Of a stretch of DNA of 64,000 bases, positions 5,352 to 52,990 are shown in pieces. Origin of the DNA: an uncultured Lachnospiraceae bacterium. GTDB lineage: Bacteria; Bacillota; Clostridia; Lachnospirales; Lachnospiraceae. The notes beneath the pieces were generated by a model that did no database searches, was not told the origin of the DNA, and saw only the letters and a program-made list of their open reading frames with translations. The DNA lies in contig CANRWO010000004.1 of assembly GCA_947643615.1 (NCBI GenBank), forward strand, positions 1-64,000, read 5' to 3'. Numbering within the stretch: position 1 is the stretch's first letter; every line of letters starts with the position of its first letter. The position numbers and the translations under genes are program-made.

Positions 5352-5588
5352 TTATTCTTCGTCGCCTAAAATCTTAATGGCCCCCTGGTTCAACTCGTCT
5401 ACCGCAACAGAGAGGGGTTTCTTACCCGCTTTGGCAATCACCAGGGGATCCTCCCCCGCAATGATCTGCCTTGCTCTTTTTGAAGTCGCCATAACAATGG
5501 AATAGCGGCTGTTTACCACAGGTGACTCACCGGGTTCTACCTCACTGTTTACTACCTTTATCAAATCGGAATAAGATGGATGTAACAT
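5352..5588 (-). CDS. rpoZ: DNA-directed RNA polymerase omega subunit
   Basis: 78 residues, typical for Clostridia. 'MLHPSYSDLIKVVNSEVEPG' and 'SRYSIVMATSKRARQI' are the conserved omega N-terminal region, with the RYSIVMATSKRAR helix clear. Omega binds the beta-prime C-terminal tail and helps assemble RNA polymerase. The start overlaps the gmk stop by one base (TAATG), so translation is coupled. The gmk-rpoZ pair is one of the most conserved in bacteria, which backs the call. Confidence 0.93.
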   Translation of the reverse strand: MLHPSYSDLIKVVNSEVEPGESPVVNSRYSIVMATSKRARQIIAGEDPLVIAKAGKKPLSVAVDELNQGAIKILGDEE

Positions 5589-6223
5589 TATTGTGCTCCT
5601 TTCGCAAATGCTTTTAACTCATTTCTGATCTGTTGAATAAATGCCTCTCTTCTGACAGGCGCCCTGCGGGAAGCCTCCACCAATTGATGAACCTCCTCCA
5701 CACAGACATCCAGGTCATCGTTTACCGCTATATAATCATAGGCTTCTATGCCTTCTGATTCCTCCGCTGCACGGGCAAGGCGCTTCGCGATCACATCCTC
5801 GCTCTCCGTCCCCCGTTTCACCAGCCTGCGTTTCAATTCCTCCCCGCTGGGAGGTGTGACAAATATCAGCAGGCTTTCGGGAAATTGCTCTTTGATCTTC
5901 AATGCGCCCTGTATTTCAATCTCCAGGATCACATTGTTGCCTGCCTGCATCTGCCGCTCTACATAATCCCTGGGGGTACCGTAATAGTTATCGCAGTACT
6001 GTGCATATTCGATCAATCCGTTCCGGCGGATGGTCTCCTCAAAATGCTCCCTGTCCGTAAAGAAGTATTCCACGCCGTCCCGCTCCCCCTCCCTGGGTTT
6101 CCTGGTGGTCATGGAAACCGACAGGGCATAATTGTCATATTTCTTAATAAGCGCCTTCACAAGGGTTCCCTTACCCGCCCCTGAGAAACCTGATATCACC
6201 GTGAGTATTCCCTTATTTTCCAT
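5588..6223 (-). CDS. gmk: Guanylate kinase
   Basis: 211 residues from the chosen ATG, the usual length. P-loop 'SGFSGAGKGTLVKAL' near the N-terminus, GMP-binding 'SVSMTTRKPREGERDGVEYFF', and 'NVILEIEIQGALKIKEQFPE' are all present. It phosphorylates GMP to GDP in the cytoplasm. The open frame continues to 6316, but that stretch runs into the hairpin modules of the upstream leader; GGGGA about 7 bases before the ATG at 6223 supports the short form, though an in-frame ATG four codons earlier cannot be excluded. Part of the yicC-remA-gmk-rpoZ operon. Confidence 0.94.
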   Translation of the reverse strand: MENKGILTVISGFSGAGKGTLVKALIKKYDNYALSVSMTTRKPREGERDGVEYFFTDREHFEETIRRNGLIEYAQYCDNYYGTPRDYVERQMQAGNNVILEIEIQGALKIKEQFPESLLIFVTPPSGEELKRRLVKRGTESEDVIAKRLARAAEESEGIEAYDYIAVNDDLDVCVEEVHQLVEASRRAPVRREAFIQQIRNELKAFAKGAQ

Positions 6224-6241
6224 AATAATCCCCATTCCGGA

Positions 6242-6358
6242 GCGTTTACGCGACGGAGCGACGCAAATATCAAATTTGCGTCTGCAATCAAACAAATTTG
6301 TGACGCTCCAGCACAAATTTGCGTGTGAAAATCAGCACATCAGTGTGATTTTTCACAC
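6242..6358 (-). repeat. Three-hairpin module A (gmk-proximal copy)
   Basis: Read on the minus strand: hairpin 1 (6323-6358, loop CTGATG), hairpin 2 (6293-6321, CAAATTTGTG/CACAAATTTG), the linker GATTGCA, hairpin 3 (6260-6282, GACGCAAAT/ATTTGCGTC), then a mini-hairpin GCGTAAACGC (6242-6251). The same order, loops and linkers recur in module B (6376-6504), but the stems differ in sequence while still pairing. It ends just before the gmk start. Nothing in it looks coding. Confidence 0.7.
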
Positions 6359-6375
6359 TAATCCTCCATGTCAGA

Positions 6376-6504
6376 GCAGTTTACTGCGATGACACGCGAT
6401 GAGAAATTCGCGCAGGCGATTTCTCATCTGCGATCAGGGCATATTTGAGGCTCTGACTCAAATTGCCGATTGAAAAATAAAGTCATCAGACTTATTTTTC
6501 AATC
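6376..6504 (-). repeat. Three-hairpin module B (remA-proximal copy)
   Basis: Read on the minus strand: hairpin 1 (6468-6504, GATTGAAAAATAAGT stem, loop CTGATG), hairpin 2 (6443-6463, ATTTGAG/CTCAAAT), the linker GATCGCA, hairpin 3 (6398-6428, GATGAGAAAT/ATTTCTCATC), then a mini-hairpin GCAGTAAACTGC (6376-6387). Each module is preceded by a near-identical ATGRGGGATTAG-like box (about 6505-6517 and 6359-6372). It starts about 10 bases after the remA stop. Confidence 0.7.
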
Positions 6505-6527
6505 TAATCCCTCATGTCCTCCAAGCG

Positions 6528-6800
6528 TCAGCCTTCCCTGCTGCCGTCCTCCATTCCCTCCGCCCCCTGGCCCATATGGACTCTGCCCGCGATAGTCTCG
6601 GGCAGCAGCGCGGACAGCACGATCTGGCTGTTCTCCATGACCAGCACCGATTTCGTCTTGCGCCCCTGGGTGGCGTCGATTGCCGTACCCTTTTCCTTTG
6701 CACCCTGCACCAGGCGCTTTACAGGCGCCGAATCGGGACTTACGATAGCTATGATCTTGGATGTATTTACAATGTTCCCAAACCCGATGTGGATCAGCAT
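6528..6800 (-). CDS. remA: RemA/DUF370-family extracellular matrix regulator
   Basis: 90 residues matching the DUF370/RemA family from end to end: 'MLIHIGFGNIVNTSKIIAIV', 'SPDSAPVKRLVQGAKEKG', and 'RKTKSVLVMENSQIVLSAL'. In Bacillus subtilis RemA is a DNA-binding activator of biofilm matrix genes, and it lies beside gmk there too. Role here is inferred from the family. The start has AGAGG 6 bases upstream and is 9 bp after yicC. The last 12 residues (MGQGAEGMEDGSREG region) are a non-conserved tail. The stop lies about 25 bp before the first hairpin of module B. Confidence 0.92.
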   Translation of the reverse strand: MLIHIGFGNIVNTSKIIAIVSPDSAPVKRLVQGAKEKGTAIDATQGRKTKSVLVMENSQIVLSALLPETIAGRVHMGQGAEGMEDGSREG

Positions 6801-6809
6801 AGGATACCT

Positions 6810-7688
6810 CTATTCAATATTCTGGATCTGCTCGCGCACCTTCTCGATCTCGGTCTTTAACTCGATGGCACAGTTGGAAATCTCCAAATCGCTGGCCTTT
6901 GATAAAATGGTGTTGGCCTCCCGGTTCATCTCCTGTGCGATAAAGTCAAGCTTCCTGCCGATAGAACCGCCTCCCAGCAGGGTATTCCTGGTAGTCTCGA
7001 TATGGCTGCGAAGCCTTACGATCTCCTCATCCACACAGACCTTATCCGCAAAGATGGTGACCTCTGTCAGCAGCCTTCCCTCGTCCACTGTGGTATCGGC
7101 CAAAAGCTCCCGGACCCGGTCCTCCAGTTTCTGCCTGTATTCCGCAATTATCTCAGGGGACCTTTCCGAAATAAAATCAACCAGCTTCCCCATCCCGTCC
7201 AGTTTGTCGATCAGGTCGTCCCTTAAGTGCCCGCCTTCCACAATGCGGGTTTCAACGAACATCTTCGCCGCTCCCGCCACCGCCTTCTGCAGCTCCGTCC
7301 ACAGCTCCTCCTGATCCACGTCAGCCTCTTCCATGGTAAGCACATCCGGATACTTGGACAGAGCGGATACGCGGATATCATTGTCCAACCCAAAGTCCTC
7401 CGCCATCCGGTTCAGATACTTTAAGTATTCCTCCGCCACCTCTCTGTTGTAGCGCACTGTAGAACGGCTCTCCGAAAGATCCTCAAAGGTGATGAATACG
7501 TCCACCTTACCGCGGGAAATGTAATTTTTCAGTTCCGTGCGGACTGCGGACTCAAAGATCCCCAGCGCTTTGGGCATCTTTATGTTCACATCCAGATAAC
7601 GGTGGTTCACCGACTTCATTTCCACCGTGAACTTTCTGTTGTTCTCGGCAGTCTCGCATCTGCCGAAACCTGTCATACTCTTTATCAT
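6810..7688 (-). CDS. yicC: YicC-family endoribonuclease-like protein
   Basis: 292 residues from the ATG at 7688, which begins MIKSMTGFGRCETAENNRKF, the invariant YicC opening; GGAG lies 7 bases upstream. The C-terminal DUF1732 region has 'IGRKLDFIAQEMNREANTI' and 'EISNCAIELKTEIEKVREQI', both hallmarks. YicC proteins are cytoplasmic endoribonucleases in the cases studied and often precede gmk. First gene of the operon here, with a good sigma-A promoter at 7730-7758. Confidence 0.92.
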   Translation of the reverse strand: MIKSMTGFGRCETAENNRKFTVEMKSVNHRYLDVNIKMPKALGIFESAVRTELKNYISRGKVDVFITFEDLSESRSTVRYNREVAEEYLKYLNRMAEDFGLDNDIRVSALSKYPDVLTMEEADVDQEELWTELQKAVAGAAKMFVETRIVEGGHLRDDLIDKLDGMGKLVDFISERSPEIIAEYRQKLEDRVRELLADTTVDEGRLLTEVTIFADKVCVDEEIVRLRSHIETTRNTLLGGGSIGRKLDFIAQEMNREANTILSKASDLEISNCAIELKTEIEKVREQIQNIE

Positions 7689-34158: not shown

Positions 34159-34244
34159 TTTACCTGCCCTCCTTAAATATGACCATGCCGGATATCCAAT
34201 CCGGCTTATATATAAAAGATATTATATACCGTTTCCTGTCATTT

Positions 34245-34292
34245 TAAAAGGAGCAGCACTCCCCGACCGCTGCCGATCAGGGGTACTGCTCC
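34245..34292 (-). terminator. Intrinsic terminator of the 116-residue secreted protein gene
   Basis: On the minus strand GGAGCAGTACCCC pairs with GGGGAGTGCTGCTCC (one bulged base) and is followed by TTTTAAAA. It lies 35 bp after the stop codon of the gene ending at 34327, just before the EamA gene. Confidence 0.75.
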
Positions 34293-34326
34293 CATATCAC
34301 CGTAACCCGTTATCCGGAGGATATGC

Positions 34327-34677
34327 CTACCTTTCATCCCCCGTATCCGTAACATATAAAGCCGCTTCCCCAGTCTCATGGTTTACGTAACCAACGCCGG
34401 AAGCTCCGTAAGATACTATTCGGAAGTTTGTGCCCGAGCCGTAAGTAGATTCCATATATTCCCGGTGTATCCCGTATATTTCGTCTTCGGCTAAACTTCT
34501 TGAACCAGATTCCGCATATTCCTTTAATGTCTCCTGCGTCTGCTCAGAAACCCAGCCATTTGAACTTACATCACTTGTGTTTCCATGCAGAAGAATCCCG
34601 GAAATGGCAAATAGCATAAGTACAGATATGGCTGCAAAATATTTCTTGTTTTTTAGCATTTTTATGATTCTTTCCAT
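34327..34677 (-). CDS. Hypothetical secreted or membrane-anchored protein
   Basis: 116 residues from the ATG at 34677 (AGGGAG 4 bases upstream). Positive start, then a hydrophobic segment (about 14-30, 'YFAAISVLMLFAISGILLHG') that could be a signal peptide or anchor, then an acidic polar domain with 'YMESTYGSGTNFRIVSYGAS' and 'GYVNHETGEAALYVTD'. No family recognised. It has its own terminator. Confidence 0.6.
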   Translation of the reverse strand: MERIIKMLKNKKYFAAISVLMLFAISGILLHGNTSDVSSNGWVSEQTQETLKEYAESGSRSLAEDEIYGIHREYMESTYGSGTNFRIVSYGASGVGYVNHETGEAALYVTDTGDER

Positions 34678-35455: not shown

Positions 35456-35499
35456 AAAAAGGCGGAAACTATTGTATAGTCAATGTTTCCGCCTTTTTC
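35456..35499 (+). terminator. Intrinsic terminator of tRNA-Thr
   Basis: AAAAAGGCGGAAAC pairs with GTTTCCGCCTTTTT around a 15-base loop, 19 bases after the tRNA. The A/T flanks make it potentially bidirectional. Confidence 0.9.
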
Positions 35500-35705
35500 T
35501 ATCGCCTAAAATACAACCGTGATTTTTTTAATTGCGCTGTTCTTGTGAAGTGGGGATTTTATTTCGCAATACAATTCTGTATGCCCTTCACAGGTTATCG
35601 CTTACAAATACTGGCTTTGACTAAAAATTATATTATGTTGTATTTTGTCTATATATTTACTTTCTTATTCTGCATCTGATTATTTTAATGACCACTATTT
35701 ATGTA

Positions 35706-52739: not shown

Positions 52740-52990
52740 CAAATAACCGCGGAGAATCCATCCCTGCTTAGAGACGAATTCATCCGCGGTTCCACTCTAC
52801 TTAAAGGCACATGCCCTTCCCTCAACGCGTTTAACGCACGCCTACGTGCCTGCTTTTCAACAAGCCTGCTCCCGGGCGCACTTCCCTTTTCTCCCGCGGA
52901 AGCTGCTCTCAGCCTGCCTGCAGCTCCTCTCTGGCACGTTCCAAAAAGATACTCTTCCCGTTCTCCGCATTTTTCTGTTCTTTCTTAATT
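52740..52990 (-). promoter_or_regulatory. T-box leader (cysteine) of cysE-cysS
   Basis: On the minus strand the T-box sequence GTAGAGTGGAACCGCGG (52784-52800) is present; its AACCGCGGA can pair with TCCGCGGTT (52745-52753) to form the competing terminator stem. The leader contains AGAGAGG and GGCTGAGAGC features of stem I, and the specifier is probably TGC (Cys) in AAGTGCGCC near 52879-52887. Uncharged tRNA-Cys would stabilise the antiterminator and allow cysE, cysS and perhaps the following genes to be transcribed. Confidence 0.88.

Follow-up and report, generated by a model that had tools for sequence, protein, structure and literature searches.

A dispersed structured element of Lachnospirales that favours translation starts and is probably mobile

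We analysed a 64,000-nucleotide stretch of DNA from an uncultured Lachnospiraceae bacterium, referred to here as the window. Between remA and gmk it carries two tandem modules, A and B, which can be read directly at positions 6226-6504 of the minus strand and together measure 279 nt. The features of the locus, in minus-strand order, are these:

6528..6800, minus strand: upstream gene of the remA family (PRK04323, 116 bits, cut-off 87)
6505..6515, minus strand: left flank ATGAGGGATTA, a probable former Shine-Dalgarno sequence (SD) of gmk, judging by its letters and by the SD enrichment in left flanks
6359..6504, minus strand: module A, 146 nt, from the sequence; P1 (TGAT loop), P2, P3, TAAA mini-hairpin and SD-like box GGAGGATTA
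6226..6358, minus strand: module B, 133 nt, from the sequence; design as in A, ending in GGAATGGGGATTA
6226..6235, minus strand: third box ATGGGGATTA with the gmk SD, from the sequence, its spacing to the gmk ATG and the ORF-start statistics of non-array copies
6221..6223, minus strand: gmk start codon ATG, from the sequence; TT separates it from box 3
5588..6223, minus strand: gmk, guanylate kinase (TIGR03263, 230 bits against a cut-off of 160.45)

Against the RemA model proper the upstream gene scores 114.1 bits, under the cut-off of 140; protein family models also name a YicC-family gene in the window. The order of the boxes on the minus strand is ATGAGGGATTAG, module A, ATGGAGGATTAG, module B, ATGGGGATTA, TT and the gmk ATG. 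Common to both modules are P1, a long-loop P2, a linker (GATCGCA in one, GATTGCA in the other) that pairs with the far side of P3, P3 itself, a mini-hairpin with a TAAA loop and an SD box. An earlier note on this DNA had described two minus-strand modules of the same design, and hairpin 1 with its TGAT loop, hairpin 2, the linker, hairpin 3, the mini-hairpin and the arms it quoted are all present. It placed the modules wrongly, at 6242-6520, and of its box ATGRGGATTAG, which is there, the first instance, ATGAGGGATTAG, has one G more. That box is an SD. The note missed that box 3 is the SD of gmk, that the P2 loop pairs with the strand preceding the SD, and that the family is dispersed.

The region is highly structured in prediction, RNA folding of 6221-6520 giving -116.6 kcal/mol against a shuffle mean of -78.97 (sd 4.86, z -7.74, reached by 0 of 200 shuffles). 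A promoter scan of 6150-6900 returned three promoter-like sites (shuffle mean 0.8, sd 0.9), two of which are one P1 palindrome read on both strands, and a terminator scan of the same interval returned one terminator-like site against 0.7 in shuffles.

A 321-base query had 50 BLAST matches in its own genome, so the modules are real and not a chance arrangement. These matches split into 40 places and 63 segments, arranged as A, B, A-B, B-A, A-A-A or B-B; several other copies of module A are full-length at 100% identity, and the other segments of module B have 90-97% identity. By DNA search the element occurs in 23 of 99 genomes, its own included. We aligned 19 diverse copies (alignment A1) and built from them a covariance model, R1, which has 49 matches in the own genome. 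The window modules score 108.7 (A) and 145.4 bits (B) with R1, values that prove nothing since both were in the model. Six own-genome contigs (C10, C21, C95, C105, C121 and C123) start inside a module, and the true copy number is therefore probably above 49.

The search for further copies with a covariance model, which the earlier note had set as a test, thus found them in the own genome and in other Lachnospirales. Of 61 genomes searched with R1, 21 have matches; an order-wide sample of 294 yielded 26 positive genomes, which fall in two families and 16 of the 144 genera covered (the own genome is included in both counts), and a phylum-wide sample of 398 yielded the own genome only; weak copies may be missed in these counts, as the three large R1 searches used stricter filters and the order-wide and phylum-wide ones scored few candidates per genome. 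In twelve chosen positive genomes the numbers of matches were 130, 71, 56, 55, 50, 30, 20, 20, 17, 16, 13 and 5. Relatives found through gmk include Acetatifactor and other Lachnospiraceae. Two weak model matches lie elsewhere in the window, at 35461-35564 (13.7 bits, resembling a terminator hairpin by eye) and at 34218-34346 (11.7 bits).

As the earlier note had supposed, the family is absent from Rfam: no covariance model of release 15 matches the modules at the gathering threshold, window positions 6000-6800 gave at raised E-values only two matches, both on the other strand (E 4.1 and 6.2), and five related loci gave none at E up to 0.1. Rfam does recognise a T-box leader elsewhere in the window, at 52767-52974 (122.2 bits). 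With E up to 1e-3 the element had no match in phage and plasmid records. In viral contigs a 16-base pattern picked out five stretches; none of the five reached E 0.01 with the model, and they were taken as chance. None of the article titles listed by our literature searches, to whose scope preprints, most subscription papers and supplements did not belong, describes such an element, which may nevertheless stand unnamed in some published list of candidate RNAs.

The design is maintained by paired changes. In A1, 95.8% of 863 cells over 46 pairs are paired and 23 of the 46 pairs have changed on both sides, and none of 500 shuffles reached this level of pairing or change; shifting by 1-3 columns as a control lowered pairing to 34-45%. 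In addition, the P2 loop forms a pseudoknot with the strand just 5' of the SD, and the two covary. We measured the longest complement, allowing G-T, in 88 R1-aligned copies with 75 distinct loop/tail pairs; the pseudoknot is absent from R1, the model behind the alignment. Over the distinct pairs the mean complement was 8.03 bp, compared with 5.88 when tails were permuted (0 of 2000 permutations) and 4.39 when loops were shuffled. At least 7 bp were found in 79%, against 3.9% with shuffled loops, and 6 of the 88 copies had 5 bp or fewer. The loop/tail types include CCGGAGCG/CGCTCCGG, TTTCTGAG/CTCAGAAA, CCGCAGGC/GCCTGCGG, CGAGAACG/CGTTCTCG and GTCAGAGC/GCTCTGAC.

To place the element relative to genes we began with 136 matches, using 89 at 94.5 bits or more and dropping 47 at 42.8 bits or less, many of which arise from the palindromic P1 on the opposite strand. 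In 82 of the 89 fetched copies the right junction coincides with the start of an ORF of at least 50 codons, compared with 517 of 1780 random positions. A wider set comprised 128 strong copies (the 89, 33 from fetched loci and 6 from the own genome), leaving out duplicate rows for one place and short or weak matches; own-genome copies ending in A, window A apart, are not among them. Removal of 16 array-like copies, which have an element end just to their left, left 112, with three copies in one carrier repeat of genome G283 counted as three. In 102 of the 112 an ORF starts at the right junction on the strand of the element. An SD 4-mer lies within 20 bases to the left of the element in 89 of the 112 (18.6% of 1658 control windows), and the last letters of the left flank are T (79%) and A (85%). 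Left flanks that resemble the element's own pre-SD end were also considered; the resemblance was seen in 22 of 78 flanks and at 12 of 91 ordinary gene starts, a signal too weak to use.

Within the own genome we could check 34 of the 40 places, the other six ending at a contig end. An ORF of at least 60 codons starts at -7 to +9 bases in 18 of the 20 places that end in B, the exceptions lying on C11 and C107. Places ending in A fit in only 4 of 14 (ORF of at least 60 codons starting within 9 bases), which lowers our trust in a mobile element aimed at translation starts; at several of the non-fitting places more repeat-like sequence follows.

Other repeats were seen around module A. Immediately to the left of module A, or of a remnant of it, four own-genome loci (L031 2267, L014 1680 minus, L040 115 minus, L042 3420) have a second type of short palindrome, GCCGCCCAAAGGCGGT or CCCGCCAAAGCGGGC followed by a box such as ATGGGGGATA. 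This type may represent a shorter module within the superfamily. A pattern for a short palindrome, run against all loci, found no match. Larger imperfect palindromes that start with GTGTGAGAAG follow module A at L049 (C19 after 21305) and L043 (C53 after 371), and are possibly another module type.

Own-genome genes downstream of the element include gmk, gyrB, glmS, fabZ, radA, a DNA-3-methyladenine glycosylase, a pyrK-type gene and rnhB; gyrB, glmS, radA and pyrK score under their model cut-offs, only 250 residues of each having been supplied. In other genomes, 80 gmk loci all lack the element before gmk (locus L102 offers just 84 bases upstream), and one of them, L092, has a copy elsewhere. 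The proposal of the earlier note that the modules are a leader specific to gmk, or separate remA from gmk expression, is thus unsupported, copies preceding unrelated genes.

The most exact view of an insertion comes from genome G283, where three element copies have identical flanks. Joined together, the flanks recur in a carrier repeat that has inverted ends and of which 17 full-length copies are empty. The carrier is about 150 bases long with ends TTGTACAATATAAACAATCC (loci L370-L386 and L297-L299). Empty carriers read GGTGCATA followed by ATATG (16) or ACATG (1). All three occupied carriers read GGTGCATA, then an insert running from GTGTG to GGAACAGCGATTA, then ATATG, with the letters of the target intact on both sides. 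The clean match of empty and occupied carriers, with the junction between TA and ATATG, shows that the module is inserted whole; all three occupied carriers go back to a single insertion and count as one event. The ATG that follows has only six codons behind it, so the case speaks for a choice of target and not only for survival near genes. A less exact comparison (77% identity) is provided by a gene that is valS-like by eye, where G067 has GGAGGAGATTATG and G113 has GGAGGAGTAA, the module and TATG. Together with the near-identical dispersed copies, the empty and occupied sites bear out the behaviour of a mobile repeat that the earlier note had suggested.

The target is duplicated to a limited degree. 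Target duplication and CTCC were compared in 88 of the 89 strong copies. In the wider set, left and right boxes share at least 8 nt in 16 of 102 copies, where about 3 are expected by swapping, and 2 nt or fewer in 57 of the 102; in the carrier the duplication is TA at most. A general target-site duplication of 8-11 nt was therefore rejected, as it holds in a subset only. From these sequences the SD seems to have been duplicated in a subset of insertions, and elsewhere the right SD seems to have arrived with the element or the left SD to have decayed. Terminal inverted repeats, which a MITE of a DDE transposon would have, were not seen by eye, the left end GTGTGAAAAATC and the right end CGGAATGGAGATTA not being complementary, and a repeat search in 6200-6540 returned the P1 pair only.

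What does the structure serve? The arms of a perfect hairpin can be matched to each other by hairpin-templated repair, and the covariation of the stems could be a by-product of such repair of palindromes instead of selection on structure. The stems are nearly perfect, and departures from pairing show no clear excess of G-T over A-C (41 against 38 in alignment A3 and 7 against 11 in A1, one doubtful pair aside; 16 against 10 within the pseudoknot). For these reasons the stem covariation that the earlier note had taken as a sign of selection, real as it is in the 19 copies, is alone no proof of RNA function. Yet the strands of the pseudoknot lie about 70-80 nt apart, share no common hairpin and still covary in many types, and we judge repair to be a rather improbable account of the whole; of the two, the pseudoknot speaks more strongly for selection than the stems. 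The same departures bear on a cis-acting regulatory RNA, riboswitch-like or bound by a protein and selected at each gene, in which strand CGCTCCGG could switch translation. Beside the SD this strand has three mutually exclusive partners, the P2 loop, the outer arm of the mini-hairpin and, as CTCC in many lineages, the SD itself; the covariation of the pseudoknot, the sense orientation and the ORF starts at 102 of 112 junctions are likewise what a regulatory leader would show. RNA under selection at each site should, however, favour G-U, and G-T and A-C departures in about equal number are what neutral decay would produce once the element has inserted, so that the structure may matter more for movement, as DNA or RNA, than for each host gene. 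What is more, the named downstream genes have no common theme, many near-identical copies stand in one genome, CTCC:GGAG pairing is absent in some lineages (G333, for example, has CTGCGG ends), and engaging the pseudoknot raises predicted SD exposure only weakly, from 0.30 to 0.43 (an increase in 49 of 103 and a decrease in 29). Selection of a regulator at each gene is therefore a possibility that we hold to be unlikely.

The machinery of movement is a separate matter. The lack of inverted ends, hairpins towards both ends, a single orientation, a short target and tandem copies would all suit a REP- or PATE-like element that a Y1 transposase (IS200/IS605 or RAYT) mobilises as single-stranded DNA. 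No Y1 domain (PF01797) was found in the own genome (a draft of 126 contigs, 96% complete) despite its 49 copies, and genomes that have the element carry Y1 in 9 of 23 cases, genomes that lack it in 31 of 76 (tables compared by hand), which makes this route a quite unlikely one. Still less probable, and in our estimate a long shot, is that the module is the RNA of an IS110-type recombinase (a bridge RNA) or of a reverse transcriptase that moves it. The folding of the module, a loop that complements the module's own end, and TA at both junctions in many copies would fit such a role, but among 25 chosen genomes the IS110-type DEDD recombinase (PF02371) was not found in the own genome, G297, G314 or G113, nor the reverse transcriptase domain RVT_1 (PF00078) in the own genome, G286, G283, G258 or G187. 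These absences are no proof, because draft assemblies easily lose repeated transposase genes.

We consider it probable (about 0.7) that the modules are a non-autonomous mobile element of Lachnospirales that favours translation starts and leaves the gene with an SD. The dispersion and near-identity of copies, their covarying structure, the position and orientation of most strong copies and one exact comparison of empty and occupied sites are direct results of computation. The element, of about 130-150 nt, would fold into three hairpins, a mini-hairpin and a pseudoknot of the P2 loop with its own 3' strand, and a trans-acting enzyme may recognise this folded single strand, whether DNA or RNA. 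Insertion would take place in one orientation, preferably downstream of the SD and upstream of the start codon, at sites that read SD...TA/NTATG (the slash marking the junction). The right end would carry an SD or, in some insertions, duplicate one, so that the gene would still have a correctly spaced ribosome-binding site, preceded now by a structured leader. Repeated insertion at the new box could then build tandem arrays such as A-B, and the copies before gmk may have arrived by this route. The earlier guess, of a structured family and of a mobile unit, thus holds in part on both halves.

A bolder and doubtful extension is that the element finds starts by pairing. Its own CTCC/CTCA strand, which alternately pairs with the P2 loop, would read the SD of a target in single-stranded DNA or mRNA, and the element would insert between SD and start codon and replace the SD. 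Ribosome-binding sites would then be safe harbours, and scattered genes would come to share a single switchable leader with a pseudoknot.

What is new here is where the element lands, in the space from SD to start codon. As a rule, small repeats of bacteria settle at any harmless position; this family favours one functional spot and leaves an SD there, with up to 130 matches in one genome and with housekeeping genes among those preceded. If the element itself picks the target, it would represent a new way of inserting safely and a source of shared translational leaders among these bacteria, and it would be categorically new should base pairing with the SD prove to do the picking. The comparison of empty sites and the covariance model make the interpretation as a mobile element testable.

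Like MITEs, BOX, REP, ERIC and RUP, the element is short, non-coding, dispersed, hairpin-rich and non-autonomous, and some of those are modular too. Unlike them, it has no inverted ends, contains a pseudoknot, ends on the right in an SD and occupies, in a single orientation, the space from SD to start codon. With REP/RAYT systems and the PATEs derived from IS200/IS605 it shares asymmetric hairpin ends and oriented insertion, and it differs from them in that no Y1 gene was found in its own genome and in being longer, with four hairpins and a pseudoknot. Leader RNAs in Rfam, such as the T-box and riboswitches, are likewise structured leaders with alternative pairings beside the SD, whereas the element is dispersed and mobile, precedes unrelated genes and has no Rfam match. 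The TAACTGA repeats of Beggiatoaceae are 7-nt direct repeats, and about 10% of their intergenic regions hold an SD (PMC4679880). They too are dispersed, forward-oriented and placed just upstream of the start codons of genes without a common theme; the element, by comparison, is a folded module of 130-150 nt that carries an SD.
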